This document shows positions 20,386 through 64,000 of a DNA stretch of 64,000 nt, in pieces; the first letter of the stretch is position 1; each line of letters begins with the position of its first letter. This stretch comes from Strigamia acuminata. Taxonomy: Eukaryota > Arthropoda > Chilopoda > Geophilomorpha > Linotaeniidae. A program made the translations under genes and the position numbers. The stretch lies in assembly GCA_949358305.1 (NCBI GenBank), contig OX442314.1:28567118-28631117 (forward strand), read 5' to 3'. A model generated the notes under the pieces. The model was not told the origin of the DNA and did no database searches. It worked only from the letters and a program-made list of their open reading frames with translations.

Positions 20386-20387
20386 CG

Positions 20388-21569: not shown

Positions 21570-21660
21570 CTGAAATTTAAAAATATATTTAAAGTCAATA
21601 AACTCAATATTGAGTGAAAAACAGATGGGCATTTTCTCTTTTTTCTGATTTTCTTTACTT

Positions 21661-21701: not shown

Positions 21702-21740
21702 CATCAACCACATCGATAAAATATAATTTTCTTAGCTTAC

Positions 21741-23737: not shown

Positions 23738-23920
23738 ATCTCAAATCTTTTCATCCCGAATTTCTCGTGCTGATGCATGGAATTAATCCCATCTCGCATC
23801 GCTTTGTTCTATTTATTCGCCTCGGGTAACGTCATCGCTTGCTTGTGCGCGGCAGGCGTAATCAAAACGTCAGCCATGTTGGCTTGTTCTCTCAGCCTTC
23901 CCGAACGACATACACCGCGT

Positions 23921-24754: not shown

Positions 24755-24779
24755 ACCGTCATCTGGGGTAACATTGAAT

Positions 24780-35288: not shown

Positions 35289-35667
35289 TTACTTTTTACA
35301 TGTTACAAACAACAATGAAATGACATTCTGTAATAGCTCTGGTATTACCAGCAACGACAAACCAAAAAACAAACCAAAACTATTTCCCACATCACAGAAC
35401 AGAGCGTTTAGGCTGTATACATCATATTCTTTAAATTTCTCTATTAAATTATTTACGGGCATAATTGCAGCAACTGACACAATACTTGTGTTAGGTTGTT
35501 GAAAATAAACACGTGTTTGGTATATATTCTCTGTGCAGGAAGGTTGACAGTAACATTCTTTCTTTATGTCGGTCTTCAGAGATAAATGAATAAACGTGGA
35601 CAAAGCTTCTTTGGCTTCTTCGGCAGAGCTGCATGTGTTGGTCAAATTGTTCTCGGTGAAAGGTAAT
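35289..35667 (-). CDS. Channel copy 2 exon e: TM2 of domain 2 and C-terminus
   Basis: After a CTAG acceptor it encodes LPFTENNLTNTC, the C-x-C-x-x-x-C motif CYCQPSC (residues 38-44 of the exon), and TM2 (about 88-115) with the G-x-S filter motif GLS at 102-104. The first C of the C-x-C motif lies 64 residues before GLS, exactly as in domain 1. A stop follows about 10 residues after TM2, so the cytoplasmic tail is very short unless a later exon is used. Confidence 0.85.
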
Positions 35668-38600: not shown

Positions 38601-41600
38601 CCTTCTTTTAACGCTCTCAAATAGCCGCTTAGCAATCCATCGAATTACAGCCAATAAGGACAACAAGGACAAGCCCAATGCAAATCCCAAATTTCCACCT
38701 AAGTCCACCAAAAGTGCAATTTCGTCATAGAGATATTTTTCAGTTAGGACGACGTATGTCGCATCATTTTGCGTCATTTTGGTAATTACTATATTTTCAT
38801 CCGTGAATTTCTCCAGAACGAGGTGGTAATGATATGCGTTTTTTAAACAAGGTCGCAAGCAACCACAATCTAATGTTGCCAGTGTGGATAATTCTTGTTT
38901 GTACGCAGCCTCGTGAGTTTTAGATACAATGGCCTTATTTTTTACGGCACTGCAATCACGAACTGCATCATTAAAAGGCATGTAGGGTAATCTGTAATTT
39001 AAAGATGTACCATTTAAAGTCAAGAAACTCAATATTAAGTAAAAAACAGATGGGCACTTCCTCTTTTTTCTGATTTTCTTCACTTTGTGCCTGGATATGG
39101 TCTTACCCGCGCAGTATGGGGATTTACAGCACGGGAGGGACGCATACATCACGTAAACGAGACAGAGACTCCAGATTGTTGGGTTTTGGCCTTTAATCCG
39201 TTGTCTAGGGGTTGGGGTCTCCCATCTCACTGTGTGGAGTGCTATTAAGCATGCTACATTGGCAACCGTCCCGTCGCACACAGGGCATAGCTCCCATGTA
39301 CGACGTGGTTGGATACCTCAAACAAACATTCTGCCGTACTTACCTATGGCCCATGAAGCCACTCATGGTACTGCAGCAGTCACCTCGATCTGCCACTGAG
39401 CGTCACAGTGGTGAATGGTGAGAGGAGCGGAGACGGCAGTTGTCTCTGCCATTGTTAGGACCGTGGCAGCTCACTCTGGCACGTCTTCACTCTCGGCTCC
39501 CTCAGCAACGTCTTCGCTATCACCACACCACTCTGCTCTGTACCTCCCTTACTAGGCCGGTCCACTCTTCCAAGACGGGGACGGCTTGGGGTCACCAGGC
39601 AATGTGTGGAGTGACGTAGGTCACTAGGGTGGCCAAACGGTCACAACTTAGTGACAATGTTTTAACGTGATTATGATTAATTGTTGGTATAATACACAAA
39701 AATGTGGACTAACCGACATTCCGGCTTTAAGATTCTAGCCAGACAATCTTCGTAACATTTGACGTTTAGCTGTTCGTCTGGGCTGCAAAACGGGTAGTTT
39801 GATGGTAAAAAATTGTACTGGAAACGAATAATTATTTCAATACATTTATAGCTACAATTAAATCCTGTTTATATCTCACTTGTATGATGAAACACCAAAA
39901 AGCACTTACCTGCCGTAAATGAAAATCCACAAACAACACGTTACCAACTTGTATTGTCATTGCATATCCATATGGTTGCAGAGGATTTATAATAGCAATC
40001 TATTAAGGAGATAATTTAAAATTTAAAGATATACTATTAAATAGATGACTACACGCAGTATTGTCAACGGAGGGAGTTGGTGGGTCCACCCTGTAATCTC
40101 CAGAATCCCAGGAGACTTCAGAGCAATCGTTTTTTCACACAAGAGAAACAGACGGAGCATGCATGAGAAGAGAGTTCTGCAAAGCATTATCGTCTGATTT
40201 GTAAGTATGCCACCTTGGGGTCACAACCCCAGATGTCCCCGCAACGTTTGAGGTTAGAGAAAAATTTTCAATCAGAAAGTTGGAGTGTCCGAACTCCATT
40301 TTGTTTATTGTTATTTTATGACGCGCTTGCCTTCCGCAGCGCCCCCTGTACAATTCTGTTGAATAAATCACTTATGTTAATTTTCACCTACAACATGGCT
40401 GCTTCATAACCAACTTCCACATAATTACATCTTTAAAACAATTCATCGAGACCAAAGAACACATTAATTGGCGACGAGAGATGAGTATTTGACTGAATCC
40501 AGCAACTTACAAACTTTTGTGCTCTTTTTTGGATCTTTTGATGAACTTTTTGCCACCGACCACGTGTCTTTGACCACGCGTTGACCGTTAGGCCTGAACT
40601 TTGATTGTAAGTTTTTGCTCGATTTTACCGACTTTACCGCTCGAAAATGCCTTTGGTTGCGGCACCCGAAAAGTATAACCCACTAGACGACTGGGAGACG
40701 TATTTAATGCAAATCGAATGCGTTTTCTCCTGCAATAAAATCGTCGACGACAAGGAAAAAGTGAATACGCTTTTGGCCTGTGTGGGTATGGCCACTTTTG
40801 CCAAGTTCGTGGATCTCGCCAGACCGAAAAAGCCGACGGAGTTAACGTTTAAGCAGCTCACAGACTTAATGATCAAAAACCAGAAACCTAGACCGGTGAA
40901 ACAAGGTGAAATCGTCCGTTTTCGAGCTCGTAAGCGCAACAAAGGCGAGTCCGTGAGCGACTTTGCAGCCGCTCTTCACTCACTCACCAAGTATTGCGAC
41001 TTCAACACTGCCCAGGACGACGAGATGCGAAACCAGTTCGTGATCGGTTTGAACATGCGGCAGGTTCAAGAGACGCTTTATGTGCAGAAGAACTTGACTT
41101 TTGCGTTAGCCCTCGAAGCCGCTACCTCCGCCGAAATCGCCGGAGCCGACGTGTCCAGTTTTGTTGATGCGCAACAGTCCGTACACCAGCTGCGCAAGTC
41201 GGGAAACTCATCACGTCAACATGCGAACTCGCAAAAAGGAGGCAAACGTCCCTCGAGGGGCACCTCCGGTCAGCAGCACCAGCAGTCAGACCACTCGAAG
41301 CCACAGCACGAAAAACAAAAGTGTAAACACTGCGGCAAATCTGGCCACCGCCAGGACGAGTGTCGTTTTCGCACTGCAAAATGCCACGATTGCGGCATTG
41401 AGGGCCACATTAAGCCCATTTGTCGCGCCACAAAATCGATTACGAGCGCTCATCACACGACGATCTCAGCACCTCGAAAATTGACGTTCTACGCCGTCCG
41501 CATGAAGGAACTGCAAACCCCAAACTCGGTGAACGCAGTGGCCCTCCGACACACCAAACCTTTGGTACTGGAGCTTCGTATCGCCGACATTCTCCTCTGG

Positions 41601-44600
41601 ATGGAAATTGACACCGGAGCGAGAGCGACGATCGTTAGTTGCGAGATGTACGCCAAGCTTTTTTCGAAATTTCCGCTTAAATCGCTCGGCACGGAATTAT
41701 CATCGTACGACAGCGACGCTTTGCCTATGGCGGTTGTGTGCACTGTTCCTGTGGAATACGCCGGCAAATCGTTCACCTTACCGTTGTGTGTGGCTGAGCA
41801 CGGCCAAGTCCCGTTGCTAGGCCGCGATTGGATAGACATTTTCGGTCTCCTCGACGTTGCTGGTGCAGCGCTGCGCGCTGTCGTTTACCAAGCCAAGCCG
41901 GGAGTTCCATCGAAGTCAGCTCGCAAACGTGCGATTCGCCAGCGAGCCAAGCATCCACCCGATCCAGAACCAGATTCGACATCCGCCGTCGCTCCTACTC
42001 GCGACACGGAACCGCTGCCTGCGCCGCGCGACGAGCCGCTTTCTCTGTCGATTATTGCTGCCCCTGCGTGTGGATTGGCTTCCCGCAAGGCTGCGGCAGC
42101 TAAAGATGCTGCTCCACGCTGCTCGGCGAGCGAGGAAGATAAAATCAGACTTGAATCTATTTTACAGAAGCACGAGAACGTTTTCCGGGACGAAATTGGC
42201 TGCTACAACGTGGCACCGGTGAGTATCGACATCGATCCGAATTTCAACCCAATTGTTTTGAAGGCGTACCCGGTGCCACTCGCAGTCAAGCCAGCTCTCG
42301 AAGTGGAACTCCGTCGTTTACAAGCGCTCGGGATCATCACGCCAGTCGCCTCCTCACGTTGGGCGACCCCAATTATGCACGTCAAGAAGGTGGACGGTTC
42401 CATAAAAATAGCCGGATGTTACAATCGGACTGTCAATAAGGCGGTTCTACCGTGTTCATATCCGTTGCCGTTGTTTGCCGACGTGGCTGCAAACTTGTCG
42501 GGGGGAGAGTCGTATTCAATCCTCGACATGAACCACGCGTACAACCAACTCCGTTTGACCGCTGCCAGTTCCGAATTATGTACGATAAACACTCATTTGG
42601 GTTTGTTTTTGGTTAATAGACTTTTTTACGGGATTTCGACCGCTCCTGCATTATTTCAACGCACGATGGACATCTTGACAGCGGACGTTGGCAACACGCA
42701 GCCTTTTATCGACGACTCGGCGGTTACTGGCCCAACGAACTCGGATCATCTGGTTAATTTGGACGCATTACTCGGCGCCTTCGACGGAGCGAATTTAACG
42801 TTGAATCGAGGCAAGTGCAAATTTTTGTGTGACTCTGTCGACTTCCTTGGCCTCCGTATTTCTAAGCACGGGATTGCTCCAATCGAGTCCAAGTTGGCGC
42901 CGTTACGCAATGCTGGTCGGCTCACCGACGTGACTTCACTTAAATCCTTCATAGGCCTTGTTAATTACTACGGCCGTTTTATCAGCAACTTGTCGACTTT
43001 GCTTGAACCGCTGTACCGACTCACTCGTGATGATACGAAGCGGGAATGGTTGGACGTCCACGAGAAGACGTGGCTGAAGGTGCGTGAGTCGGTCTCCGTC
43101 GATTCGGCTCTCGTGCATTACAACCAGAAAGAAGAAGTGTTCCTGACTGTGGATGCTTCGCCTGTCGGCGTCGGCGCATTTTTATCGCATCGTGACAAGA
43201 CTGGACAGCACCGACCAATAGCATTTGCTTCATCGTTGTTGTCAGCCGCTCAACGCAACTACGCGCAGATCGAGCAGGAAGGTTATGCCATCATTTATGG
43301 CATCAGAAAGTTCCACCATTACCTTTTTGGTCGTCGTTTTGTTTTGCGAACGGACCACAAACCACTCGTATCGATTTTTGGCGACAAAAAGGGTTGCAAC
43401 CAAATTGTTGCAGCTCGATTGCACAGGTGGGCAATTTTCCTGTCTGCTTATGACTATCAAATCGAGCATCTGCCTGCTGTGGACAACGCGATCGCGGACG
43501 GCTTATCTCGCAATCCGCAACCTGTCGTCGACACTTCGGAAGACTGTGATTTTCACATTAACGAATTATTGTCGGTCTCAGTTTAAGATTTTCCGGCTTC
43601 AAAACCTGCATTGCAATCCGCGTACGCAGCAGACCCTCTTTTACAACAGGTGCTTCTCTGTGTGCGCAATGGATGGCAATCGAAGACACCGGAATTGCGG
43701 GACTTTTACAAGCACCGAGATGCTTTTTTGATTTACAATGAATTTCTTTTTCTCCACGACAGATTAGTTGTTCCTGCGGACTTTCGTGCGTCGATCCTCG
43801 TTGAGTTGCACGCAGGCAACTTTGGTATTGTGAGGACCAAATCCTTGGCACAATCTACAGTTTGGTGGCCAGCCATTGACGCCGACATCGAGCGGACAGT
43901 GCGCTGTTGTGACGCCTGCCAACGCTCGCTGCCTGATCCTCCTCGCACGTCCACCGTTCGTTGGTCAATTCCGGACGAAGTTTGGGGACGTGTCCACATT
44001 GATTTTGCGGGACCATTCTTGGGCAAGACGTTTTTGTTGGCGGTTGATGCGAAATCGAAATGGTGCAAAGTTCGCGCCATGACCTCGACCACAGCTGCCG
44101 CGACAATCAACGTTTTGGAGGACTGGTTTTGTCAGCACGGACTGCCCATCCACGTGCATTCCGATAACGGCCCGCAATTCACGGCGAGAGAATACCGAGA
44201 ATTCCTGGAAGACAATGGTATCCGGCACACCTTCTCACCGCCGTACCACCCCGCCACAAACGGAGCAGTCGAAGGATTTGTCGGAACGTTTAAACGACAA
44301 ATGGAGAAATTTATCGCCTTGAAATTCTCCCCCACTGATTCCCTCCGACAATTTTTATTCTCCTATAGATCGACACCGCACGTGACGACGAAGAAGACGC
44401 CTGCAGAAATTTTTTTGCGGCGTACGATGCGCACTCGACTTCACCTCCTCAACCCGCGCCTTCTGCCGACCTCGGCATTACTGGAAACGGCTAGAAGTTT
44501 TGCAGTCGGTGATGCAGTTTTCGTTCGAGATTATCGTCATTCGGATAAGTGGATCCCCGGCATTGTGAAAGAAATTGTTTCCTCGACAACGTACACTGTC

Positions 44601-47600
44601 GAAATTGCGGCTGGAGTGTTGTGGTCTCGTCACGTTGACCAGTTGCGGAAACGTGCAACAATTGGACCACCTCTTCCAATTGAAGGGGATGAATGCAGCT
44701 CGGGCCCATTCGTAATGCCACAAACTGCATGTTTGGCTCCGCCTGTCGTCCTGCCTCAACCTCAACCTCAGCTGATAATTCCTGCGCCTAACCAGAACTT
44801 GCCTAACGCGCTTGCAACTCCGCCGCCACCACCTTTGCCTGCGCCGTTGCTCCCTGCGCTTCTACCGTTGCTTCCTGCTCCTCCGCCGCCTCCGCATGTG
44901 CTCCAGCCGTTGCCGCAATCGCCTCCACCAGCTGCTCACTCCAGACGGTCGGCAAGAAAAAGGAAAAATACGGTTACTCAACAAATAATTAACTCATTCG
45001 TGTTTGTTGTTATATTTGTTTATTGATTCGTTTATTACAATGTTAATTTGAAATGTCAACCTTTGTTAGAGTAATTGCTCCCCTGATTGGTCATCAATTA
45101 AGGGGATACTGGAGTGTCCGAACTCCATTTTGTTTATTGTTATTTTATGACGCGCTTGCTTTCCGCAGCGCCCCCTGTACAATTCTGTTGAATAAATCAC
45201 TTATGTTAATTTTCACCTACAACATGGCTGCTTCATAACCAACTTCCACATAATTACAACTTTAAAACAATTCATCGAGACCAAAGAACACATTAAAAGT
45301 TGTAGAGCACCATCAAATTAGTACTATCCAACTTATCTTAGTCATCTTAAGTTAATTGACTTTGTTTTAAAATGAAATAAAATCAGCTGAAATAAAGCCA
45401 GCCAATGCAGCAAAAATTTAATTTCTACTGCAAAAGTATTGAATTTCTTCAATAAATGTATTCAAATTTGCTTTATTGTACAAGTAAACAGGAAAAACCA
45501 CTAGGCGCATTCAATAACTTTTCGTCTAAATTTTCGTCTCCACGAATTTTTAGACGAAATGTTTTGTTTCTGAATGCAATCGTTTATTTGGTAAATAGAA
45601 TAAACGATTGTGTGACTGTCAAACTTGATGTGGAATTACAGATCAAGTTCTAGTTCTAGGCCATATACCGCTGCAAGTCGCACACGGGTATTTTTTTTCG
45701 AGATTTTGCTTCCCTCGCTTTTTACTATTGTTTTCAGCCCAAATAATAACCATAGTGATGATTATTATTGTCGTTTACTCTAAATAAACAATAACTGCTT
45801 CAAAATTGTACTTACGATCGAGATGTTTGCGACCGATCTATCGGAAATCCAAGATGGCTGCCAACAATACCCGATTTGCAAGAGTTTTCTCGTTACACGA
45901 AGATTTAAACGCCCTATTTAGGTCGTTTATTTTCAGCCCGTTTAAACCCATTTTAAACGAGCTTTTAAACGAGAATCTCGTTTAAAAGTTCGTGCAAACG
46001 GGTTTAAACGATCGTTTTGGAGTTATTGAATGCGCGTACTGTCTTTTTTTAATGTCTAAATTATTTTATTTTTTTAAGAATAAAAAATTTCAATTTGCTA
46101 ATTTTTTTTTTTTTTAAAAAAACAGTTAACTTAAGGTGACTAAGATAAGTTGGATAATACTAATATGATGGTGCTCTACAACTTTGTAATTAGGAATTTT
46201 TCTTTAACCTGAATGGTTTAGAAGTGTGGTGATCTCAAAATGATTCACTACTTAGAAGATGAATATATTTTGTCTCCTAATTAATTTGGCTTGGCACACG
46301 CCAAGTCAGATCATGTGACCAAGGGGAGGAAACTTCCCTAGGCACATATCACCCCAGGTTGGCCGCGGTGAAAACGGCAATTAACCGTTAAGGTGCAATA
46401 ATCCTTTGTTGCACCAGTTTTAACTAATTGAAGCGTGCCAGGCTCGCGCCCGCGCTTCAATCGAGACTCTTGAATATACAACACAACCCACAACATCACT
46501 GCTTTTCTACTCCGACTAAAAGTATTGACAGTGGACCGTGTTCTTCAAGTTTCACCAGCTTGCTTTGTACCAACGTAGCCGCAGCTAATTTCCGCATTCG
46601 AGAAGAGAAGTTCCCGCCAGACGTGAACCACTGCCATCGCTGACGCGCGAACGTTAGCCATCGCCGTTGTACGCCGAACGGAAGCCTGCCCGACGTAAAC
46701 CACTGCCTTCGCGCCGTCGTACGCCGAGTAGTAGACTCACGTGAACCATCGTCGAAAGGACCATCGTACGTGAGTGTCGAGAGGAAAATAGAAGCCATTT
46801 TCCTAACAACTAAGCGTTGTTAAGCACAATTGTCGTGCTTTTTCACGTGCAACAGTCGTTGCACGTATTTCCATTATTTCGCGACTTGTCGCTTTATTCC
46901 CATATTATTCTCGTATTATCCGTATTATTACTGTATTTAACCGAATAAAAACATATTGTGATTTTATTGATAAAACCTGTTTTTTATTTCCTATTAAATT
47001 AACCCTAGATAATTTAGGCCGCGATATAAGTCTTTTATAGCATTGACCTGCGGTTTCTGCTTAATTTATTAGAAATTAAGTAGAGAAAAACCCGGATCGC
47101 AGCAGAAGTTAGCAAGTGAATAACCTTGAAAATGGCCTTCAAGGTCAAATTTGATGACATCATTGGATTGCTCTCACCCAACTTCCTATATGATTGCTTC
47201 ATCAAAGTTGGCCTAGATGCAATTTTTCAGGAAATATTTGTAGGGGACCAGACTTTTAGAACACTCTGTATAATAATATTCGTGTAATTATTTCATTCCT
47301 GTCTGTGCTCTCAGCTGTTAACTAAAGCCGTTACCAGTCGCTTAGCAACGGAACTGCCAAAATTAGGGGGTTGCTAAGGCAAACTCCTAATGAGCACCGT
47401 TGCCTGGCACCGAAGCGTGCCAGATAAACGCCATGCATGCGCATTGGCCGATTTTCCGGCTAAATTCTGCAGTAATATTTGATTATTAATCATTCTTTTA
47501 GCTACACTCAGTACCTTCACCAAGCTGTCACAGCTCTGCTACAAACGCATTGTTTTGACCAGTGATTTGTGAGACTCAAAAGATTCAACCTTGATTTGTT

Positions 47601-48750
47601 TTACATTTGAATTACTTATTTAATTCCCTAGACATTATTTTTACTGGCCAAATTAGATAGAAGACCAGAAACGGCATTCAACTGGTTCCACCATTTGAAT
47701 TCCGGGACTCGTATTTGTGAATAAATATAGATTTTTATATTTATTCGATCAATTCTTTGTTGGAAAAATCCAGGAACGCAGCACACCAAACATAAGGTTT
47801 GGCAAATTCTCCATTGGGATTGGATTTCTGATCAGGTCAGTGGAATGAATGGACCCTAGTGATCTGACTAATCTTTTTAGAAAAGGGTCAATAAGATAAG
47901 AAGTAATAATACGGTCATAAGTGGAGTTTTGCAGTTTCCATTTCGACGTAAACTCCAATCGAGTGAAAATCCTTCACTCATGGATAAACCTAAACCGAAA
48001 TGGAATGATTTAAATTAAAAAAGATGTACTCTACTTGAACAAATATTACTTACTAGTCGTCAATACTAAGGTAGATCCCGTGCTCGTGTCCTTTTCACTA
48101 ATTTCTACATTGGAATCAGATGCTATCAAAACACTGCCATTTCGACGCACTTGAGACAGAATTTTGTTGTACTGCAACAATAATCAACTCTGTTAATCAA
48201 ATAATCAAATTACAATTGAAATAAAATCTATTTCTATCCTACATCAACCACATCGATAGCGTACCTTTTTAACTCTTACAAGCTCAACATTTCCCATTAA
48301 ACTCGAATCGCTCCACAGCCGAGTGTAGTTGTCAATCTCGGTATTTAAATTGATTAGTCCTCTCACTGCACTTCCACAATGTTTAAATTCCGAAGTGACG
48401 TCACCTTCAAAATGTAGTGGCCACAAAGCGGTCAAAGCCGCAGTGTCGAACCCTGCTGCAGAGAAGCCGAGCAGTTTTAAGTGTGTTGTCTCTTTAAATT
48501 CAATGTTAACTTCAACCGGTCCAGACATGTAATAGCGTAGTCTGTCATACGTCTGGTAACAGCAAATGCCCGAGCAAAAACCGATTGCAATCAGCCACAG
48601 AATTCGGACCGAAAGTGATATTCGTTCGTCCAAAATCTTGTTGATTATCGGTAGGGAATTCATCTCGATTGAATTTTCAATTTGTTCTCTACATAAATAC
48701 CTAATGCGATGTTTTCGTTTGATGACTCGTCGGTTTCTCGCGAGTGCCAT
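35289..48750 (-). CDS. Channel copy 2: two-domain DEG/ENaC gene
   Basis: Exons on the minus strand, high to low: a 48750-48265, b 48171-48054, c 47989-47913, f 39999-39910, g 39817-39714, h 38991-38175, i 38110-38026, j 37969-37881, k 37757-37656, d 35886-35783, e 35667-35289. Phases agree at each junction as drawn, giving about 815 residues. The product should be a plasma-membrane cation channel subunit with four membrane segments and two ectodomains; all termini and the linker are cytoplasmic. The intron between c and f holds element D, a solo LTR and a fold-back repeat. A domain 1 exon between c and f may have been missed. No stop or frameshift was seen. Function (amiloride-type sodium channel or ligand-gated) cannot be told. 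Confidence 0.75.
35783..35886 (-). CDS. Channel copy 2 exon d: cysteine-rich segment of domain 2
   Basis: 104 bp, phase 0 in and phase 2 out, acceptor CTGTAG, donor GTAAGT. It encodes C-x8-C-x3-C-x8-C (HACVAREEHVRCRNEC to SIKC), the conserved pre-LP cysteine block of DEG/ENaC ectodomains. It is the counterpart of exon g in domain 1. Confidence 0.8.
35887..37655 (-). other. Channel copy 2 intron between exons d and k
   Basis: No gene is seen. It holds a CTCATTACT microsatellite near 36474, scattered CCGATA/TATCGG words (36570-36620 and 37405-37440), and an inserted repeat at 36742-37265. The homologous copy 3 intron (51863-52951) lacks that repeat. Confidence 0.6.
36742..37265. repeat. Interspersed repeat starting CAGGGTGTCCCAAAAGTC
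   Basis: It is absent from copy 3. Its first 170 bases reappear inverted at 47105-47275, and GTTGTAGAGCACCATC near 36943 recurs at about 45299 and, inverted, at 46170. The GGGTGTCC end is common among arthropod interspersed repeats. The right limit is approximate. Confidence 0.6.
37656..37757 (-). CDS. Channel copy 2 exon k: domain 2 ectodomain
   Basis: 102 bp, 34 codons, phase 0/0, acceptor CTCCTCAG, donor GTATGT. It encodes LYVRPPGAKIESILTS and onward, the stretch after the first palm strands. It is conserved in length in copies 1 and 3. Confidence 0.75.
37881..37969 (-). CDS. Channel copy 2 exon j: domain 2 ectodomain
   Basis: 89 bp, phase 1 in and phase 0 out, acceptor ATTTAG, donor GTAGGT. 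The product PMKFAGVGSTVLLSFIKNK has the hydrophobic strand that follows G-x-C-F-x-F in the family. Confidence 0.75.
38026..38110 (-). CDS. Channel copy 2 exon i: domain 2 ectodomain
   Basis: 85 bp, phase 0 in and phase 1 out, acceptor CACCAG, donor GTACTA. It ends HSGRCFEFEL, matching the G-x-C-F-x-F signature of DEG/ENaC. Confidence 0.75.
38175..38991 (-). CDS. Channel copy 2 exon h: TM2 of domain 1, linker, TM1 of domain 2
   Basis: The 817-bp exon is the key of the gene. It starts LPYMPFNDAVRDC, has the motif CGCLRPC (exon residues 42-48), then TM2 (about 92-118) with DLGGNLGFALGLSLLS and the filter triplet GLS at 106-108. A basic linker of about 45 residues follows (about 119-163, rich in Lys and Arg), then a second TM1 (about 164-184, YVQYTVLFAGAVIASYVV) and ectodomain start (YYSEPTKTVVTV, MPNVIACTEG). 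The acceptor is ATTACAG and the donor GTAGTT, phase 2 in, 0 out. There is no stop between the two membrane segments. Confidence 0.9.
38992..39713 (-). other. Channel copy 2 intron between exons g and h
   Basis: It consists mostly of the solo LTR at 39086-39645; the rest matches 54265-54428 of copy 3. Confidence 0.75.
39086..39645. mobile_element. Solo LTR in the g-h intron (560 bp)
   Basis: TGTGCCTGG..GGTCACA ends are flanked by the duplication ACTT (39082-39085 and 39646-39649). Copy 3 has the uninterrupted site (CTTTGCTTAGTGAC near 54349). Copy 1 carries only its first 41 bases at 21661-21701. Confidence 0.85.
39714..39817 (-). CDS. Channel copy 2 exon g: cysteine-rich segment of domain 1
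   Basis: 104 bp, phase 0 in and 2 out, acceptor TTTCCAG, donor GTTAGT. It encodes YNFLPSNYPFC and C-x9-C-x3-C-x7-C ending KPEC, then joins LPYMP of exon h. The frame stays open about 17 codons upstream of the acceptor, so an earlier acceptor is possible. Confidence 0.8.
39910..39999 (-). CDS. Channel copy 2 exon f: domain 1 ectodomain
   Basis: 90 bp, 30 codons, phase 0/0, acceptor of AG type, donor GTAAGT. It encodes NPLQPYGYAM and QVGNVLFVDFHLRQ, similar in pattern to exon j of domain 2. The intron to exon g is only 92 bp here. Confidence 0.7.
40000..40280. other. Intron part left of element D (copy 2)
   Basis: It matches 55740-55990 of copy 3. One short open stretch near 40090-40230 was considered as a domain 1 exon but the frames disagree between copies. 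Confidence 0.5.
40281..40467 (+). repeat. Element D 5' LTR
   Basis: 187 bp, starting TGGAGTGTCC and ending ACACATTAA. An AATAAA signal (GAATAAATCA) is near its middle. The primer site follows at once (TTGGCGACGAGAGATGAG, 40468-40485), like the TGGCGAC-type sites of gypsy elements. Confidence 0.88.
40647..43586 (+). CDS. gag-pol: Element D gag-protease-RT-RNase H
   Basis: The 979-residue polyprotein starts MPLVAAPEKYNP. The gag part (about 1-220) is followed by two CCHC knuckles (CKHCGKSGHRQDEC and CHDCGIEGHIKPIC, about 225-258), protease (MEIDTGARATIV, about 318), RT (about 520-760) and RNase H (LTVDASPVGVG about 834, IADGLSRNP at the end). The two-knuckle, single-frame layout is typical of Mag/K02A2.6 elements. 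The RT active site reads FIDD, not the usual YxDD; both aspartates are kept. The frame ends at TAA (43584-43586), and integrase continues in the same frame. Confidence 0.9.
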   Translation: MPLVAAPEKYNPLDDWETYLMQIECVFSCNKIVDDKEKVNTLLACVGMATFAKFVDLARPKKPTELTFKQLTDLMIKNQKPRPVKQGEIVRFRARKRNKGESVSDFAAALHSLTKYCDFNTAQDDEMRNQFVIGLNMRQVQETLYVQKNLTFALALEAATSAEIAGADVSSFVDAQQSVHQLRKSGNSSRQHANSQKGGKRPSRGTSGQQHQQSDHSKPQHEKQKCKHCGKSGHRQDECRFRTAKCHDCGIEGHIKPICRATKSITSAHHTTISAPRKLTFYAVRMKELQTPNSVNAVALRHTKPLVLELRIADILLWMEIDTGARATIVSCEMYAKLFSKFPLKSLGTELSSYDSDALPMAVVCTVPVEYAGKSFTLPLCVAEHGQVPLLGRDWIDIFGLLDVAGAALRAVVYQAKPGVPSKSARKRAIRQRAKHPPDPEPDSTSAVAPTRDTEPLPAPRDEPLSLSIIAAPACGLASRKAAAAKDAAPRCSASEEDKIRLESILQKHENVFRDEIGCYNVAPVSIDIDPNFNPIVLKAYPVPLAVKPALEVELRRLQALGIITPVASSRWATPIMHVKKVDGSIKIAGCYNRTVNKAVLPCSYPLPLFADVAANLSGGESYSILDMNHAYNQLRLTAASSELCTINTHLGLFLVNRLFYGISTAPALFQRTMDILTADVGNTQPFIDDSAVTGPTNSDHLVNLDALLGAFDGANLTLNRGKCKFLCDSVDFLGLRISKHGIAPIESKLAPLRNAGRLTDVTSLKSFIGLVNYYGRFISNLSTLLEPLYRLTRDDTKREWLDVHEKTWLKVRESVSVDSALVHYNQKEEVFLTVDASPVGVGAFLSHRDKTGQHRPIAFASSLLSAAQRNYAQIEQEGYAIIYGIRKFHHYLFGRRFVLRTDHKPLVSIFGDKKGCNQIVAARLHRWAIFLSAYDYQIEHLPAVDNAIADGLSRNPQPVVDTSEDCDFHINELLSVSV
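43587..45026 (+). CDS. Element D integrase, after an in-frame stop
   Basis: Directly after the TAA the same frame goes on, DFPASKPALQSAYAADPL, so this is the C-terminal part of the pol polyprotein. A zinc-binding region (ELHAGNFGIVRTK, then CCDACQRS) and the catalytic core (VHIDFAGPF, HSDNGPQF, NGAVEGFVGTFKR) are complete, and a Pro-rich tail follows. It either needs stop-codon readthrough or was lost by one nonsense change. No independent ATG start is obvious. Confidence 0.88.
   Translation, partial: DFPASKPALQSAYAADPLLQQVLLCVRNGWQSKTPELRDFYKHRDAFLIYNEFLFLHDRLVVPADFRASILVELHAGNFGIVRTKSLAQSTVWWPAIDADIERTVRCCDACQRSLPDPPRTSTVRWSIPDEVWGRVHIDFAGPFLGKTFLLAVDAKSKWCKVRAMTSTTAAATINVLEDWFCQHGLPIHVHSDNGPQFTAREYREFLEDNGIRHTFSPPYHPATNGAVEGFVGTFKRQMEKFIALKFSPTDSLRQFLFSYRSTPHVTTKKTPAEIFLRRTMRTRLHLLNPRLLPTSALLETARSFAVGDAVFVRDYRHSDKWIPGIVKEIVSSTTYTVEIAAGVLWSRHVDQLRKRATIGPPLPIEGDECSSGPFVMPQTACLAPPVVLPQPQPQLIIPAPNQNLPNALATPPPPPLPAPLLPALLPLLPAPPPPPHVLQPLPQSPPPAAHSRRSARKRKNTVTQQIINSFVFVVIFVY
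45100..45109 (+). other. Element D polypurine tract
   Basis: AAGGGGATAC lies directly before the 3' LTR. Confidence 0.7.
45110..45296 (+). repeat. Element D 3' LTR
   Basis: 187 bp; the differences from the 5' LTR are CTTGCT versus CTTGCC and ACAACT versus ACATCT. Confidence 0.9.
45297..46224. repeat. Fold-back repeat, interior and right arm
   Basis: The stretch AAGTTGTAGAGCACCATC to about 45356 (left arm, continued from 40252-40280 across element D) is the inverted complement of about 46128-46214. The interior has no gene; it contains words such as GTTTAAACGAG repeated in both directions near 45900-46010. Confidence 0.7.
46225..47104 (+). mobile_element. Solo LTR (880 bp) in the c-f intron of copy 2
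   Basis: It runs from TGTGGTGATC to ATCGCAGCA, flanked by GAAG on both sides (46221-46224 and 47105-47108). The uninterrupted target occurs inverted near 36900 (GCTAACTTCTAAACC). A CCGAATAAAAACA signal near 46940 puts the LTR in plus orientation. Short ORFs inside are not genes. Confidence 0.85.
47105..47275. repeat. End piece of the CAGGGTGTCC-type repeat, inverted
   Basis: It is the complement of about 36742-36912, diverged, and ends AAAGTCTG-like sequence at ACTCTG. It completes the repeat into which element D and the solo LTR inserted. Confidence 0.65.
47276..47912 (-). other. Channel copy 2 intron after exon c
   Basis: It matches 56010-56671 of copy 3. No gene is supported; an open frame at 47749-47958 is an extension of exon c past its likely donor and is not kept in copy 3. 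Confidence 0.55.
47913..47989 (-). CDS. Channel copy 2 exon c: domain 1 ectodomain
   Basis: 77 bp, phase 1 in and 0 out, acceptor GGTTTAG, donor GTATTA (weak). It encodes LSMSEGFSLDW and RRNGNCKTPL; GNC fits the G-x-C motif after TM1. The 3' edge is uncertain. Confidence 0.55.
48054..48171 (-). CDS. Channel copy 2 exon b: domain 1 ectodomain
   Basis: 118 bp, phase 0 in and 1 out, acceptor TTGCAG, donor GTAAGT. It encodes YNKILSQVRRNGSVLIASDS and a hydrophilic tail, and is conserved in copies 3 and 4. Confidence 0.75.
48265..48750 (-). CDS. Channel copy 2 exon a: N-terminus and TM1 of domain 1
   Basis: 162 codons from MALARNRR to a GTACGC donor. TM1 is at about residues 48-66, the ectodomain starts YMSGPVEVNIEF, and a Cys (KHCGSAV, about 130) follows. 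The open frame runs on upstream of the ATG through an acceptor CATTTTCAG, so translation could also begin in an earlier exon. Confidence 0.85.
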
Positions 48751-51069: not shown

Positions 51070-51216
51070 GTGCCATTTTGCACAATAAAAGTGCCATTAT
51101 ACACATGAAAAATGCCATTGAACACATGAAAAGTGCCATTGAACACACGAAAAGTGCCATTTTACACATAAAAAGTGCCATTTTACACATGAAAAGTGCC
51201 ATTTTACACGTAAAAA
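51070..51216. repeat. 21-bp minisatellite, 7 units
   Basis: GTGCCATTTTACACATGAAAA-type units, the contracted homologue of 34848-35240. Confidence 0.95.
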
Positions 51217-51242
51217 GAGGATTGGAGATTACATTTTACATG

Positions 51243-51615
51243 TTACAAACAATAAAACACACATGCAATGACATTCTGTAATAGCTCTGGTATTACCAGC
51301 AACGACAAACCAAAAAACAAGCCAAAACTATTTCCTACATCACAGAACAGAGCGTTAAGGCTGTATACATCAAGTTCTTCAAATTTCTCTATTAAATTAT
51401 TTACGGGCATAATTGCAGCAACTGATACAATACTTGTGTTAGGTTGTTGAAAATAAACACGTGTTTGGTATATATTCTCTGTGCAAGAAGGTTGACAGTC
51501 ACATTCTTTCTTTATGTCGGTCTTCAGAGATAAATGAATAAACGTAGACAAAGCTTCTTTGGCATCTTCGGCAGAACTGCATGTTTTGGTCAAATTGTTC
51601 TCGGTGAAAGGTAAT
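51243..51615 (-). CDS. Channel copy 3 exon e: TM2 of domain 2 and C-terminus
   Basis: LPF start, CDCQPSC motif, then TM2 with GLS intact, followed by a stop after about 9 residues. The last residues differ from copy 2, so the tail is not conserved. Confidence 0.83.
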
Positions 51616-54600
51616 CTAGTTGGATACAGACTTTTAAAGTACGTTCATGGTGGATAGCAGTAATATAATATTATTTAACAACACATGGCAATTTGTATAG
51701 AAATTAGATGAATGTTTCCATTTCAATGAACTTTGGCATTTTTGGATGAGTGACTTACTTGCATTTGATTGATTGAAATTTACTTCGAAAGCATTCGTTT
51801 CGGCATCGGACATGCTCTTCTCGTGTGACGCAGGCATGTGATTTTACATTAAGTGATATTTTCTGCAGCAATTAAAAATAATTTCAATTTTATGACTGCA
51901 ACATGGAAGTATACTCTGGCTCATCATAAGTGGGTACCCAGTTCCTATTGGCCGAGCCTGTTTACTCCTAACTGTTGCCTTTGTACTACGACCAGGAAAT
52001 GTAGTTCTGTTGTGTTTTTAATTTGTTTGATTATTGTAATGGTTGAAATAATGTTAATTGACTTTTATTTAATAATAAAATGTTTTAAAAAATCTTAAAG
52101 CAATGTTATATGCTGTTATTTTTTCCAAATACATGTTTGTTCAGTTTGTTTAGTTTACTGGTTGCTGTTTCAGGAAAGCAAGCAATTTTTGAAATTTATG
52201 ATTGATTATTTTGTTTGACAAGCACTCAATATGTATTTTAGCCTATTTTTATTTATACTTATACCAGTGAAATAGCTCGGCCAATAGGAACTGGGTACCC
52301 ACTTGCGATAAGCCAGAGTAATTACTTTACTTTTACGTATTCAAGTGATGTGATGCCTTGAATTTTAAAGCAGAAATGCAAAAAACCCAAAGCATCTATA
52401 GTACTATACACTTGTTCAATCCAAGAGAGTCCTTTCTCCCATGGCTAAACCTCATTACTCTTAAATCTACCACCAGGAAAAGTATTTTTTTATTTTTTTT
52501 TTATTTTTGTGACTATTATGATCATTTAAAATTGATATAATTTTAATTGTATTTTTTTTAAAATGGTTTTTCTATTCATAAAATAAAGTTTTATGCACTT
52601 TTTAATTTAAAACTCATGTTTGTTCTGTTTATCGGTTGCTTTGTCAGGAAAGCAAACAATTTCCTAAAAATAGGTAATCGATTACAATGTCTGTTTTGGG
52701 TCTATTTTTGTGTATCACTACACAAGTGAAATGGCTCGGCCAATGGGAGAATGGACTCTTTTGGATTGAACAAGAAAGGATCACAAAAGGATATTGGTAC
52801 AGTGTACGGGCTTCACTTGTCAATTTCAAAATGGCCACCACACAAGTTAGATAAGGGACAAATAAACTTCCAATTTCTCTAATGCTAACAGATGAAGCAT
52901 CCATAACCAAAACTAAGCAAGTTTTCTAATTTCACTACAATGAATACATACATTAACAAATGTAAATTGCATTATTGAAGAAGTGGACTGCATGAGGTTC
53001 CGCTGACTCGTAAGAATAGATTCTATCTTCGCTCCAGGTGGCCGCACATACAACTGAAGAGATAAAAATATCGATCAGCAAACATCAAAAAATGTTGACA
53101 GAGAAGCACACTAAATACTAATGTGCATGTTAGATCCAAAGTGCACCTATACCTGCCACAAGCCATGAGAACATGTGATGTCTTTATTTTTTACAAAGCT
53201 TAACAAAACTGTTGATCCGGATCCAGCAAACTTCATTGGCTCTAAAATGAATGAATAATTCACGTAATTTTAATATTCATTAAAATTGTTCTAGTACTTA
53301 GTTCGAACTCGAAGCATGTTCCCGAATGCATGTTTATATCATCCCTACTGAAGGTATCGCTTTTTTTCCTCAACCCAGCTCCCTGGTGTGAAGGATTAAA
53401 TAATTATACGTCAGAAATAAACGAGACAACAAGAAAAAAACAACTACGTTCAGTACTGCATCCACGGCGTATTCATCAAATCTCGGTTTCTGGTATTCCC
53501 AAACCTTTTGGAGTGATGGTTTTTTATCACTCTTCATTAAATCAATAAAATGAACTTCGCACTGGTGTTTTTTAATCTGCTTTGCATATTTTTTCGTGTA
53601 CGCTGCCGTTAAAAGGCCTTCAGCGCAGGCAATTACATTAGGCATGTAAATTGTGTCGTTTTCGTAAACTGTAACAACTGTTTTTGTCGGTTCGCTGTAG
53701 TAAAACTGGATTTTAGTTGCGACGACATACGTTGCAATTACAGCACCTGCAAACAGAACGGTGTATTGCACATAACGAGTGGTTTTTGATTTATACGCAA
53801 TAATTTTGTTGGTTTTTCTCTCCAGCTTTCTGTGAATCTTCACTATTTTGCTCGCAATTCTTTTCGTCGACGGCCTTTTTTTAAGGTTTTCAAATAGCCG
53901 TTTAGCAAGCCATCGAATTACAGCCAATAAGGACAACAAAGACAAGTCCAATGAAAATCCCAAATTTCCACCTAAGTCCACCAAAAGTGCAATTTTGTCG
54001 TAGACATATTTTTCAGTCAGGACGACGTATGTCGCATCAGTTTGCTTAAGTTTGGTCATTACTACATTTTCATCCGTGAATTTCTCCACAACGAGGTGGT
54101 AATGATATGCGTTTTTTGAACAGGGTCGCAAGCAACCACAATCTAATGTTGCCAGTGTGGATAATTCCTGTTTGTACGCAGCCTCGTGAGTTTTAGATAC
54201 AATGGCCTTATTTTTTACGGCACTGCAATCACGAACTGCATCATTAAAAGGCATGTAGGGTAATCTAAAATTTAAAGATATACCGTTTAATGTCAAGAAA
54301 CTCAATATTGAATGAAAAACAGATAGGCACTTCCTCTTTTTTCTGATTTTCTTTGCTTAGTGACAATGTTTTAACGTGATTATGATTACTTGTTGGTACA
54401 ACACACAATTAAGAAAATGTTGACTAACCCACATTCCGGCTTTAAGATTCTAGCCAAACAATCTTCGTAACATTTGATGTTTAGCTCTTCGTCTGGGCTG
54501 CAAAACGGGTAGTTTGATGGTAAAAAATTGTACTGGAAGTGAATAATTATTTCAATACATTTATAGCTACAATTAAATCCTGTTTATATTTCACTCGTAT

Positions 54601-57532
54601 GATGAAATACCAAAAAGCGTGTCACGTCGTATTTGACTTTAAATAATGGTTTCGAAAATTTTTAGGTTTCCAGGGATTGTAATAACCAGAAAATTGGGTC
54701 CGCAGGCGCCGCAACTCTTAATACTTTGCCGGGGGTGGTATCTACGTAAAGACAGCGTCTGTTCGTGAAGTCTGTATTTTTATGGGTGCAGGATATCAGC
54801 CCGGGCGCCGTTGATATTCGTATTAAGATCGTAATATCGCTTTTCACTGTGGGAAAATGTCATCACTCACTGGGCGCTCTTATAAAGAGAAGATTTCTTC
54901 TCCTGGACACGCGCAAACGTTGGGTGTACGCGCATACAGGTATCAAACCACGAACAACGTCTTCAAACCGTTGAAAATGAAATAAATACGCAATTGAGAC
55001 GGCATGCAATTCAAATGCCTAGGCTGAGGAGGAAGTCACAGTCGTGGCATAAAAAGTATGACGAATTAAGACTGTCGAATACGCCATTTCTCCGATAAAT
55101 TATACGCAAAATATGGGCAAATGATAAATGAGGCGGTCAGATAGCCAACCACGAGAATTCGGGCTGCACAATGGCCATATGCGCTAATACGCACCATAAA
55201 TCGCACTATGAAACCTCCCAGTTAAGACAGGAGATGTGAACATGTCAAAAGCTAAAATTATTCTGTCTGTTCTTACTAATTTGGTGAAACAAGTCTCCTC
55301 TGATCACATGCTCATGGCCAAGTCTATTTCCAAAGGGAAATTGGGCAAAAACAGGTGGTCAGAGAGAAATATGTAAATTTTAGGCCGCGAATGCATCAAT
55401 TTATGGCAAAATTCTCATGAATGTCTGGATGGGGTGAGCATGACCAGGCTAAATTAAGGATAAATGATAAAAATAAAATAAATAAAATAAAATAAAATAA
55501 TAAATTTGGAATTAGGAAAAAATGAAATAATTTGAAGAAATCAAAACAATTTCCAATTAAAATGGGAAAAATCAGGGAAAAGGTGCAAAATGCGCTTAAA
55601 ATTTTAAAAATTTCTACTGTCTAAAGTCAGGACCGTGACAAGCGCTTACCTGTCGTAAATGAAAATCCACAAACAACACGTTACCAACTTGTGTTGGTAT
55701 TGCATATCCATATGGTTGCAGAGGATTTATAATAGCAATCTATTAACGAGATAATTTAAAAGTTAAAGATATACTATTAAATAGATGACTACAGTATTGT
55801 CAACGGAGGGAGTTGGTGGGTCCACCCTGTAATTTCCAGAATCCCAGGAGACTTCAGAGCAATAGCTTTTTGACACAAGACAAACAAAAGGAGCATGCAT
55901 GAGAAGCGAGTTCTGCAAAGCATTATCGTCTGATTTGTAAGTATGCCATCTTGGGGTCACAACCCCAAACGTCCCCGCGACATTTGGGTGAAATTGAATA
56001 ATATTATATAATAATATTCGTGTAATTATTTCATTCGTGTCTGTGCTCTCGGCTGTTAACTAAAGCTGTTGCCAGTCGCTTAGCAACGGAACTGCCAAAA
56101 TTAGGGGGTTGCTAAGGCAAACTCCTAATGAGCACCGTTGCTGGGCACGATGCGTGCCAGACAAATGCCACGCATGCGCATTGGCCGATTTTCCGGCCAG
56201 ATTCTGCAGTAATATTGATTATTAATCACTCTTTTTGCTACACTCACTACCTTCAACACGCTGTCACAGCTCTGCTACAAACGCATTGTTTTGACCGGTG
56301 ATTTGTATACAAATCACCGATTACGTAATCTCAACAAGATTCAACCTTGATTTGTTTTACATTTGTATTACTTATTTAATTCCCTAGACATTATTTGTAC
56401 TGGCCAAATTAGATAGAAGACCAGAAATGGCATTCAACTGGTTCCACCGTTTGAATTCTGGGACTCGTATTTGTGAATAAATATAAATTTCTATATTTAT
56501 TCGATCCAATCTTTGTTGGGAAAAATCCAGGAACGCAGCGCACCAAACATAAGGTTTGGCAAATTCTCCATTGGGATTGGATTTCTGATCAGGTCAGTGG
56601 AATGAATGGATCTTATAGTGATCTGACTAATTTTTTTAGAAAAAGGTCAATGAGATAAGAAGTAGTAGTACGGTCAAAAGTGGAGTTTTGCAGTTTCCAT
56701 TTCGACGTAAACTAAATTCGACTGAGAATCCTTCACTCATTGATAAACCTAAACCAAAATAGAATGATTTAAATTAAAAAAGATGTACTCTAGTTGAACA
56801 GATATTACTTACTAGTCGTCAAGTCTAAGGTAGCTCCTGTGCTCGTGTCCTTTTCACTAATTTCTACATTGGAATCAGATGCTATCAAAACACTGCCATT
56901 TCGACGCACTTGAGACAGAATTTTGTTGTACTGCAACAATAATCAACTTTGTTAATCAAATAATTAAATTACAATTGAAAGAAAATATCTTTCTATCCTA
57001 CATCAACCACATCGATAAAATATACTCCGTAATTTTCTTAGCTTACCCTTTTAAATCTTACAAGCTCAACATTTCCCATTAAACTCGAATCGCTCCAAAA
57101 CCGAGTGTAGTTGTCAATCTCGGTATTTAAATTGATTAGTCCTCTCACTGCACTTCCACAATGTTTAAATTCCGTATTGACGTCACCTTCAAAATGTAGT
57201 GGCCACAAAGCGGTCAAAGCTGCAGTGTCGAAACCTGCTGCAGAGAATCCGAGTAGTTTTAAGTGTGTTGTCTCTTTAAATTCAATGTTAACTTCAACCG
57301 GTCCAGACATGTAATAGCGAAGTCTGTCATACGTCTGGTAACAGCAAATGCCCGAGCAAAAACCGACTGCAATCAGCCACAGAATTCGAACCGAAAATGA
57401 TCTTCGTTCGTCCAAAATCTTGTTGAGTATCGGTAGGGAATTCATCTCGATTGAATTTGCAATTTGTTCTTTACATAAATACCTAATGCGATGTTTTCGT
57501 TTGATGACTCTACGATTACTCGCGAGTGCCAT
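51243..57532 (-). CDS. Channel copy 3: two-domain DEG/ENaC gene (least disturbed)
   Basis: Exons on the minus strand, high to low: a 57532-57047, b 56930-56813, c 56748-56672, f 55739-55650, g 54532-54429, h 54264-53448, i 53382-53298, j 53241-53153, k 53053-52952, d 51862-51759, e 51615-51243. All have the same lengths and phases as in copy 2, except e (6 bp shorter). The predicted protein has TM1-ectodomain-TM2-linker-TM1-ectodomain-TM2. In exon h the domain 1 filter triplet GLS has become DLS. An upstream in-frame ATG (MDNNYIRS, 57556) is an alternative start. A solo LTR lies in the f-g intron close to the donor. A domain 1 exon between c and f may be missing from this model. Confidence 0.78.
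51759..51862 (-). CDS. Channel copy 3 exon d
   Basis: 104 bp with acceptor GCTGCAG and donor GTAAGT; the four cysteines of copy 2 are kept. Confidence 0.78.
51863..52951 (-). other. Channel copy 3 intron between exons d and k
   Basis: No gene. It is the homologue of 35887-37655 without the inserted repeat of copy 2. Confidence 0.6.
52952..53053 (-). CDS. Channel copy 3 exon k
   Basis: 102 bp, phase 0/0, acceptor CTTCAG, donor GTATGT. Confidence 0.72.
53153..53241 (-). CDS. Channel copy 3 exon j
   Basis: 89 bp, acceptor TTTTAG, donor GTATAG; reads PMKFAGSGSTVLLSFVKNK. Confidence 0.72.
53298..53382 (-). CDS. Channel copy 3 exon i
   Basis: 85 bp, acceptor CACCAG, donor GTACTA; ends HSGTCFEFEL. 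Confidence 0.74.
53448..54264 (-). CDS. Channel copy 3 exon h: TM2 of domain 1, linker, TM1 of domain 2
   Basis: 817 bp, the same layout as in copy 2. TM2 reads DLGGNLGFSLDLSLLSLL, so the glycine of the G-x-S triplet is aspartate (GGC to GAC). The linker and second TM1 are kept. Acceptor ATTTTAG, donor GTAGTT. Confidence 0.9.
54429..54532 (-). CDS. Channel copy 3 exon g
   Basis: 104 bp, phase 0 in and 2 out; four cysteines as in copy 2. Confidence 0.8.
54620..55640. mobile_element. Solo LTR of the element A family in the f-g intron
   Basis: It runs from TGTCACGTCG to GACCGTGACA, is homologous to 5340-6369, and is flanked by AGCG (54616-54619 and 55641-55644). It starts nine bases after the end of exon f, so the donor GTAAGC survives. 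Confidence 0.9.
55650..55739 (-). CDS. Channel copy 3 exon f
   Basis: 90 bp, phase 0/0, acceptor TTAATAG, donor GTAAGC. NPLQPYGYAIPTQVGNVLFV. Confidence 0.7.
55740..56671 (-). other. Channel copy 3 intron between exons c and f
   Basis: It contains the site that is empty here (about 55986-56010) and occupied by repeats and element D in copy 2. A possible extra exon near 55800-55930 was not accepted. Confidence 0.5.
56672..56748 (-). CDS. Channel copy 3 exon c
   Basis: 77 bp, acceptor GGTTTAG, donor GTACTA; RRNGNCKTPL is kept. The 3' edge is uncertain. Confidence 0.55.
56813..56930 (-). CDS. Channel copy 3 exon b
   Basis: 118 bp, phase 0 in and 1 out, acceptor TTGCAG, donor GTAAGT. Confidence 0.75.
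57047..57532 (-). CDS. Channel copy 3 exon a: N-terminus and TM1 of domain 1
   Basis: 162 codons from MALASNRR to a GTAAGC donor. An in-frame ATG eight codons upstream is preceded by a TAA in this copy only; the other copies have ACG at that place, so MALA is the common start. Confidence 0.85.
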
Positions 57533-58109
57533 ACTGCGAATGTAGTTGTTGTCCATTTACGCACACTGAAAATGTATTTTAAAAAATTCAATAACGTTTT
57601 TCAATTTATTTTCAGAGCAAGCCGCACTATATAATTATCACTGACGTGACGAGGCCTAATTTAAATTTAAATTAAATAATAAAATAAAAAAAAATATTAA
57701 TATACTAGTATATAATTATTATTTTTAACGTTTTTTCACAGAGAAAATTGTTAATTGAATTTTTAATTTGAAATGTTTAGGAAAAGTCGATCACTAACTA
57801 AATTTTCTACCTGCAGTGTCGCTAAAATTAAGTGACTTGATGTAACCGGTTTTCGGTCACGTGCAACAAAGTTCCCGCATGGCCTGCAAATCTTGATAAG
57901 ACAATCTCACCACAAGACAAGCGTCTTGGTCTTTTTCCATTCTTGTTCTCCACTCAAAATTCAAATGTTAAATTGAATAATTAAAAAGAAATGATTGACA
58001 ACACAAGGCATATCTCTATTTTCGGCAAATTTGAAGCTTTTTAAGATTTTGATAAGCACCCCCTTATGCTTCACCCTAGCATAATCTGAAATAAGACCGA
58101 AGAGACACA
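57533..58109. promoter_or_regulatory. 5' flank of channel copy 3, with block z
   Basis: Homologous to the flanks of the other units. Block z at 57961-58085 reads VKHKGVLIKILKSF after TTATTTCAG. The block y region is absent because the 58110-59573 element is inserted just before it. Confidence 0.4.
57961..58085 (-). other. Conserved block z, third copy
   Basis: Open frame to TGA, diverged from the other two by substitutions only; see 33655-33782. Confidence 0.35.
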
Positions 58110-63363: not shown

Positions 63364-63849
63364 ATGGCACTCGCAAGAAACCGACGAGTCATCAAACGAA
63401 AACATCGCATTAGGTATTTATGTAGAGAACAAATTGCAAATTCAATCGAGATGAATTCCCTACCGATACTCAACAAGATTTTGGACGAACGAAGATCACT
63501 TTCGGTCCGAATCCTGTGGCTGATTGCAATCGGTTTTTGCTCGGGCATTTGCTGTTACCAGACGTATGACAGACTACGCTTTTACATGTCTGGACCGGTT
63601 GAAGTTAACATTGAATTTAAAGAGACAACACACTTAAAACTACTCGGCTTCTCTGCAGCAGGGTTCGACACTGCAGCTTTGACCGCTTTGTGGCCACTAC
63701 ATTTTGAAGGTGACGTCAATTCGGAATTTAAACATTGTGGAAGTGCAGTGAGAGGAATAATCAATTTAAATACCGAGATTGACAACTACACTCGGCTGTG
63801 GAGCGATTCGAGTTTAATGGGAAATGTTGAGTTTGTAAGATTTAAAAGG
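63364..63849 (+). CDS. Channel copy 4 exon a: N-terminus and TM1 of DEG/ENaC domain 1
   Basis: 162 codons from MALARNRR to a GTAAGC donor, on the plus strand and head to head with copy 3. TM1 is at about 48-66. It is closest to copies 2 and 3 and is intact. The rest of the gene lies mostly beyond the window. Confidence 0.88.
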
Positions 63850-63965
63850 GTAAGCTAAGAAAATTACGGAGTATATTTTATCGATGTGGTTGATGTAGGA
63901 TAGAAAGATATTTTCTTTCAATTGTAATTTAATTATTTGATTAACAAAGTTGATTATTGTTGCAG

Positions 63966-64000
63966 TACAACAAAATTCTGTCTCAAGTGCGTCGAAATGG
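63966..64000 (+). CDS. Channel copy 4 exon b, cut by the window edge
   Basis: After TTGCAG it reads YNKILSQVRRN, identical to exon b of copies 2 and 3. Confidence 0.75.

Follow-up and report, generated by a model that had tools for sequence, protein, structure and literature searches.

A family of candidate two-domain DEG/ENaC channel genes in the centipede Strigamia acuminata

Structure and constraint of the intact genes

We analysed a stretch of 64,000 nucleotides from the geophilomorph centipede Strigamia acuminata (NCBI GenBank assembly GCA_949358305.1, contig OX442314.1), which corresponds to C1:28567118-28631117 in an assembly of 237.5 Mb and 157 contigs and is referred to below as the window, with positions counted from its first nucleotide. 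The window carries copies of a gene of the DEG/ENaC channel family, and the two intact ones, copy 2 and copy 3, are predicted to encode two channel subunits fused in one chain. Copy 3 lies on the minus strand (51243-57532) and consists of 11 exons that form a single open frame of 814 codons plus a stop, with GT...AG ends in all 10 introns. Its first exon, e1 (57047-57532; ASC match to profile positions 14-59), carries the start codon, the N-terminus and the first transmembrane segment (TM1) of domain 1; an additional in-frame ATG lies upstream, at 57556. In the gene model, e1 is followed by e2 (56813-56930; phase 0 in, 1 out), e2b (56672-56748; phase 1 in, 0 out), e3 (55650-55739; phase 0) and e4 (54429-54532; phase 0 in, 2 out), and then by exon h (53448-54264), which has an ASC match. 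After exon h come e2p (53298-53382), 6a (53153-53241), 6b (52952-53053) and e7 (51759-51862), the domain 2 counterparts of e2, e2b, e3 and e4, respectively, and finally e8 (51243-51615; ASC match), which supplies the thumb and second transmembrane segment (TM2) of domain 2 and the stop. The intron phases run 0, 1, 0, 0, 2 before exon h and again 0, 1, 0, 0, 2 after it, which indicates one gene structure shared by both halves.

Copy 2, also on the minus strand (35289-48750), repeats the same 11 exons (48265-48750, 48054-48171, 47913-47989, 39910-39999, 39714-39817, 38175-38991, 38026-38110, 37881-37969, 37656-37757, 35783-35886 and 35289-35667) with GT-AG intron ends, and its intact frame encodes 816 amino acids. 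Counterparts of nine of the 11 exons, all except e1 and e2, were found in the 10 kb examined of a paralogue, L043, whose exon h is 53-54% identical; these include e3, e4, 6a, 6b and e7 as well as e2b and e2p, the last two of which had been predicted from splice sites and phase.

Exon h starts at an acceptor ahead of the TM2 of domain 1 and ends at a donor past the TM1 of domain 2, and one open frame runs from the thumb and TM2 of domain 1 through a basic linker to TM1 and the start of the second ASC domain. An initial annotation, made from the window sequence alone, had described this exon as joining TM2 and TM1 in one open frame and had placed it again at 38175-38991 and, split, in copy 1. 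The coordinates were right and the linker has no stop; the exon is intact at 38175-38991 and lies in two pieces (21410-21569 and 7241-7901) in copy 1. The flanking exons that the annotation had proposed as the source of the remaining membrane segments do supply the TM1 of domain 1 (57047-57532) and the TM2 of domain 2 (51243-51615), and together with eight more exons they give a continuous frame. Since the junction falls within a single exon, read-through between adjacent genes was rejected. The proposal of a fused two-subunit chain is therefore borne out by a junction in one exon, by two profile-complete halves and by constraint on the joined frame.

The product of copy 3 is laid out as TM1, ectodomain and TM2, a basic linker of about 45 residues, and again TM1, ectodomain and TM2. 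Its first half matches the Pfam ASC domain (PF00858) with 61.2 bits and its second half with 45.8 bits (cut-off 23.6); the family trait of one domain per chain thus does not hold in copies 2 and 3, where two ASC domains share one frame. Hydropathy peaks are strong at 46-64, 393-411, 461-479 and 796-814, the last toward the C-terminal end of TM2, and weak at 91-109. Eight cysteines precede TM2 with similar spacing in both domains. The linker contains 16 K/R against 2 D/E residues, with no Met and no stop, as fits a cytoplasmic loop. In an alignment, the halves of copy 2 share 21% identity, which argues that the domains diverged long ago. In NCBIfam, exon h had a single match, weak and unrelated.

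Between copies 2 and 3, the first 2430 coding bases show 113 differences and no insertion or deletion (indel). The ratio of nonsynonymous to synonymous substitution rates (dN/dS) is 0.438 overall (Fisher p 5.5e-5), 0.489 in domain 1 (p 0.014), 0.419 in the linker (p 0.16, few sites) and 0.382 in domain 2 (p 0.003). The introns carry 7 indels in 581 aligned bases, counted in seven of the 10 introns after one was left out for length and two for more than 25% mismatch; at that rate, the Poisson probability of no indel in 2430 bases is about 2e-13. A dN/dS below 1 along with the absence of indels from these coding bases indicates that the joined frame is being kept.

Genome-wide family, origin of the fusion and neighbouring copies

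Exon h of copy 2 as a query gave 145 matches across the assembly (142 scored of 1459 candidates), and exon h of a gene on contig C6 gave 128 (128 scored of 1475 candidates), both of which are lower bounds. At least 139 of the 145 cover TM2, linker and TM1, two of these 139 with a stop, and at least 123 of the 128 cover TM2 and TM1 (25 of the 123 with a stop). The union of both searches amounts to at least 201 places where TM2, linker and TM1 lie in one match, 187 of them stop-free in at least one row, spread over C1, C3, C4, C6, C8, C9, C11, C32 and C50; copy 1 is counted among them, and several of the places, near-identical and in part on small contigs, could represent alternative haplotypes or recent duplicates. 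Taken with the ASC scores of the two halves, this recurrence shows that the pattern did not arise by chance. The initial annotation had treated the gene as one locus with copies; the copies are real, but the single locus has given way to a large family dispersed in the genome. Outside the local cluster, the spanning matches are 24-54% identical to exon h of the window, which indicates that the architecture is old. A genome-wide search for ASC exons gave at least 93 matches (2095 candidates, 93 of them scored), some of which belong to fused genes; one of 14 control genomes, that of Thermotoga maritima, matched too. With the fused-exon places, this amounts to a very large DEG/ENaC complement.

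First, fused and last exons alternate in arrays. Nine complete first-fused-last genes and one without a matched first exon lie at C1:27.39-27.52 Mb, and five complete genes and three with one match missing at C11:5.00-5.06 Mb; in one gap of these arrays (L041) the fused exon is actually present (bases 1-699). Among the 142 fused places listed for the copy 2 query, which include partial matches and the broken copy 1, the next exon within 8 kb downstream is a last exon in 72, a first exon lies upstream in 63, and 41 stand between a first and a last exon. All 150 first-exon rows were used for this count, and the 73 rows near fused exons, picked by eye, gave nearly the same result. In five of the 142, another fused exon follows directly, as expected of chains with three or more domains. 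This reading was rejected on the one pair compared directly (L074, C6:4.13 Mb), which proved to be two two-domain genes whose intervening last and first exons had escaped the searches; as this is one of five such pairs, a few three-domain genes may exist in the family.

To place the two domains relative to each other, we built a tree of 43 TM2 segments in 83 columns, comprising 19 from domain 1, 19 from domain 2, four from presumed single-domain genes (frame ending 18-22 residues past TM2, no listed fused-exon match near) and that of the centipede channel BRTNaC1; the 42 segments from this genome are distinct and passed a motif filter. The domain 2 segments form one clade (96/86), and a single domain 1 clade is not rejected (approximately unbiased test, p 0.399), so that the segments are sorted largely by position, as fits one old fusion. 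In paralogues on C1, C6, C8 and C11, the exon before an LP(Y/F) or MPF motif has the same start phase in both domains, and in L039, L041, L042 and L043 the probable donor following the TM1 of domain 2 has phase 0; one e4 donor in L040 is GC, not GT. The domain 2 clade, the tolerated domain 1 clade and the shared phases would all be explained by a single fusion through a deletion between tandem neighbours. Such a deletion would have joined the last coding exon of one gene to the first coding exon of the next and removed one stop and one start, and the fused gene would then have duplicated into roughly 200 or more loci. From these sequence comparisons, we consider a single origin of the fusion probable.

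Further copies flank the intact genes. Copy 1 (6755-22226, minus strand), located by blastn and the gene model, is broken and retains e1 (21741-22226), the two pieces of exon h, e2p (7094-7178), 6a (6949-7037) and 6b (6755-6856); e2, e2b, e3, e4, e7 and e8 have no blastn match in the window. Its exon h is split by a long insert (7902-21409) with Ty3/Gypsy-type open reading frames (ORFs), one of which (13138-17289) contains reverse transcriptase, RNase H and integrase by Pfam, and the exon pieces share a 4-base overlap, as expected of a target-site duplication. Copy 4 (63364-64000, plus strand) is cut off by the end of the window after e1 (63364-63849) and the first part of e2, with matches to exon h and e8 just beyond it on the plus strand (G000:C1:28632913-28633725 and 28635890-28636258). 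Immediately to the left of the window, matches to the first, fused and last exons mark another copy (G000:C1:28552189-28556617). The segment 33266-33804 resembles the flank upstream of copy 3 (57553-58107; 87% identity) and has no matched first exon next to it; it is perhaps the remnant of one more copy. The e2b-e3 intron of the otherwise intact copy 2 contains a long-terminal-repeat-type element (40611-45026) antisense to the gene, with reverse transcriptase and RNase H found by Pfam within 40611-43586. Tandem repeats of 21 bp (unit GTGCCATTTTACACATGAAAA) lie directly downstream of the last exons of copy 2 (34848-35230, about 18 units) and copy 3 (51070-51217, about 7 units). Elsewhere, the ORF at 22865-23740 presumably belongs to a Copia-type reverse transcriptase and that at 24044-24841 to a hAT-type transposase, which they resemble in motifs. 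Rfam gave no match in the window at gathering scores.

Relation to described channels

Predicted proteins with two ASC domains are recorded in domain databases and are usually put down to gene-model fusions. Among structures in the Protein Data Bank (PDB), the best match for both domains of copy 2 is BRTNaC1 (broad-range thermal receptor 1, PDB 8YMR), a centipede channel that is the subject of PMC12804983. The alignment to BRTNaC1 covers residues 56-421 for domain 2 of copy 2 and mainly residues 250-412, the distal half, for domain 1. BRTNaC1 has 431 residues and one domain, and its 4 PDB entries contain 12 chains, three in each, whereas the chains described here have two domains and about 815 residues. 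The TM2 of a presumed single-domain gene of S. acuminata (L006, G000:C6:3523627-3526974) groups with that of BRTNaC1 (99/96), at a point of the tree that carries a long-branch warning. Both domains of copy 2 also match PDPNaC1 (PDB 9JF7) of Scolopendra subspinipes mutilans, a member of the same family, which is described as having 421 amino acids encoded in nine exons and as forming a homotrimer of single-domain subunits (PMC12714832). With Drosophila pickpocket and vertebrate ENaC and ASIC, the fused chains have in common the Pfam ASC domain, the GxS tract and a cysteine-rich ectodomain; two transmembrane helices per subunit are described as the topology common to these channels in the searched text of a paper, which makes no mention of fused, tandem or two-domain subunits (Zelle, 2013; PMC3583452).

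Head-to-tail subunits in one chain have been engineered from ASIC1a, and these concatemers form functional channels (Lynagh, 2017; PMC5449180). They are artificial and consist of three ASIC1a copies, whereas the fused chains here are natural and consist of two divergent ones. Our searches of openly licensed literature found no description of a fused two-domain DEG/ENaC, and text searches of the retrieved parts of PMC10507113, PMC9822975, PMC7738191 and PMC8203789 returned none. The main text of the myriapod genome papers PMC4244043, PMC9151784 and PMC7523956, as far as retrieved, contains none of the terms ENaC, degenerin, pickpocket or sodium channel. A large protein collection yielded no homologue for the full chain or for a four-sequence domain alignment, which suggests that this collection contains few or no arthropod DEG/ENaCs. 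There were likewise no matches to the exon h alignment in bacterial genome contigs or to the domain alignment in viral contigs.

Predicted product and assembly

On the gene models, each gene very probably yields a single two-domain product, presumably translated as one chain. This protein would have about 815 residues, cross the membrane four times and carry two complete DEG/ENaC ectodomains, with a basic linker of about 45 residues between its halves on the cytoplasmic side. DEG/ENaC channels are regarded as trimers whose subunits have one domain each. The initial annotation had argued that a dimeric concatemer would force an unusual stoichiometry, such as two chains giving four domains or mixed assembly, and this may reasonably be expected. 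A fused chain may enter the three-fold pore with its two domains as neighbours, with the third position left to a single-domain subunit or to one domain of another chain. Given the linker length and the artificial ASIC concatemers, it is plausible that both domains of a chain sit in one trimer; that the chain fills two of the three positions is the arrangement we find most likely, though we put it at no better than even odds. The family may serve in sensing, as tandem arrays of this size resemble receptor families. We favour the explanation as a whole, namely a fused chain of single origin whose family expanded and whose products fill two of three trimer positions, with reasonable though not high confidence.

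Several observations weigh against this explanation. Stops occur in 2 of the 145 rows listed for the copy 2 query and in 26 of the 128 listed for the C6 query, where they can reflect matches overrunning the exon or decayed copies. Within 8 kb downstream of the 142 fused places, no exon was found in 61, another fused exon follows in 5 and a first exon in 4. The C-terminal tails of copies 2 and 3 past base 2430, outside the indel count, differ in length (21 and 15 bases, respectively). The tree has only 83 columns and many near-copies, and in its best topology the domain 1 group also takes in two segments presumed to be single-domain. The TM1 of domain 1 in copy 2 is a weak match to BRTNaC1 (12.9 bits). 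A His-Gly motif before TM1, which we take to be a gating motif of the family, was seen by eye at its usual site in neither domain of copy 3, domain 1 having NS there; the linker contains IHG in copies 1 and 2, farther from TM1 than the usual site, and IHR in copy 3. Two further points concern the pore of domain 1. The GxS tract of TM2 reads DLS, with D for G, in domain 1 of copy 3 (within 53370-54356) and of copy 4 (L012), and the glutamate at position 18' (numbered after PMC5449180) is retained in only 2 of the 19 segments from domain 1, the others having A (12), N (4) or D (1), compared with 13 of 19 domain 2 segments, all four presumed single-domain segments and, by alignment to its PDB sequence, BRTNaC1. 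In ASIC1a, this glutamate sets sodium selectivity, and the effects of replacing it are graded as one, two or three subunits are changed (PMC5449180). With such changes at GxS and 18', domain 1 could be a poor pore former.

Conceivably, then, the two-domain chains are regulatory or chaperone subunits that form no pore, or domain 1 is a structural decoy beside a trimer of domain 2. The absence of the 18' glutamate from 17 of the 19 domain 1 segments and the aspartate in the GxS tract speak for this, as does the lack, by eye, of P-x-V/I-x-x-C after the TM1 of domain 1 in copy 3; this presumed family motif is present in domain 2 (MPNVIAC) and was also seen after TM1 in e1 exons of L041. Yet GxS is retained in 36 of the 38 segments from fused genes (17 of 19 in domain 1 and 19 of 19 in domain 2; the single-domain segments have GxS in two of four and GxC in two of four), the spacing of the eight cysteines ahead of TM2 is similar in both domains, and dN/dS is below 1 in both. 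We regard this alternative as unlikely, though it survives better than the others. It is less likely still that the joined chain is a precursor, in which a protease would cut the linker after membrane insertion and leave the halves to assemble as ordinary subunits. The strongly basic linker, with its 16 K/R against 2 D/E in 45 residues, would suit a cleavage site, but in the established DEG/ENaC topology the linker between TM2 and TM1 is on the cytoplasmic side and should be beyond the reach of furin-type proteases. Two proteins per locus, made through alternative promoters or poly(A) sites with the joined exon used only in part, are very unlikely: the linker has neither a Met nor a stop, exon h begins before the TM2 of domain 1 and ends past the TM1 of domain 2, and the same layout is matched at 201 or more places. 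An assembly error or a set of decaying copies, to which the broken copy 1 and the stops noted above might point, is disfavoured as scarcely credible given two complete copies with no indels in 2430 coding bases, a dN/dS of 0.44 and the same architecture on several contigs.

Returning to the fused chain as a pore-forming unit, the divergence of the two domains at 18', a position important for conduction, fits fixed and unequal places in one pore. If so, the roughly 200 natural subunit pairs might build asymmetric 2+1 trimers, in which an exchangeable third subunit would give combinatorial sensory receptors and domain 2 and the partner would determine the lower acidic ring, domain 1 having mostly lost it; we offer this extension tentatively and think it somewhat doubtful. 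Were it true, each chain would fix the identity and order of two neighbouring subunits. A lineage with about 200 two-subunit loci must have solved the assembly of a three-fold pore from two-domain units, and subunit order and stoichiometry, which are usually probed via artificial concatemers, become testable in a natural system. In essence, the family points to a receptor-like expansion in an arthropod that is undescribed in the openly licensed literature searched.

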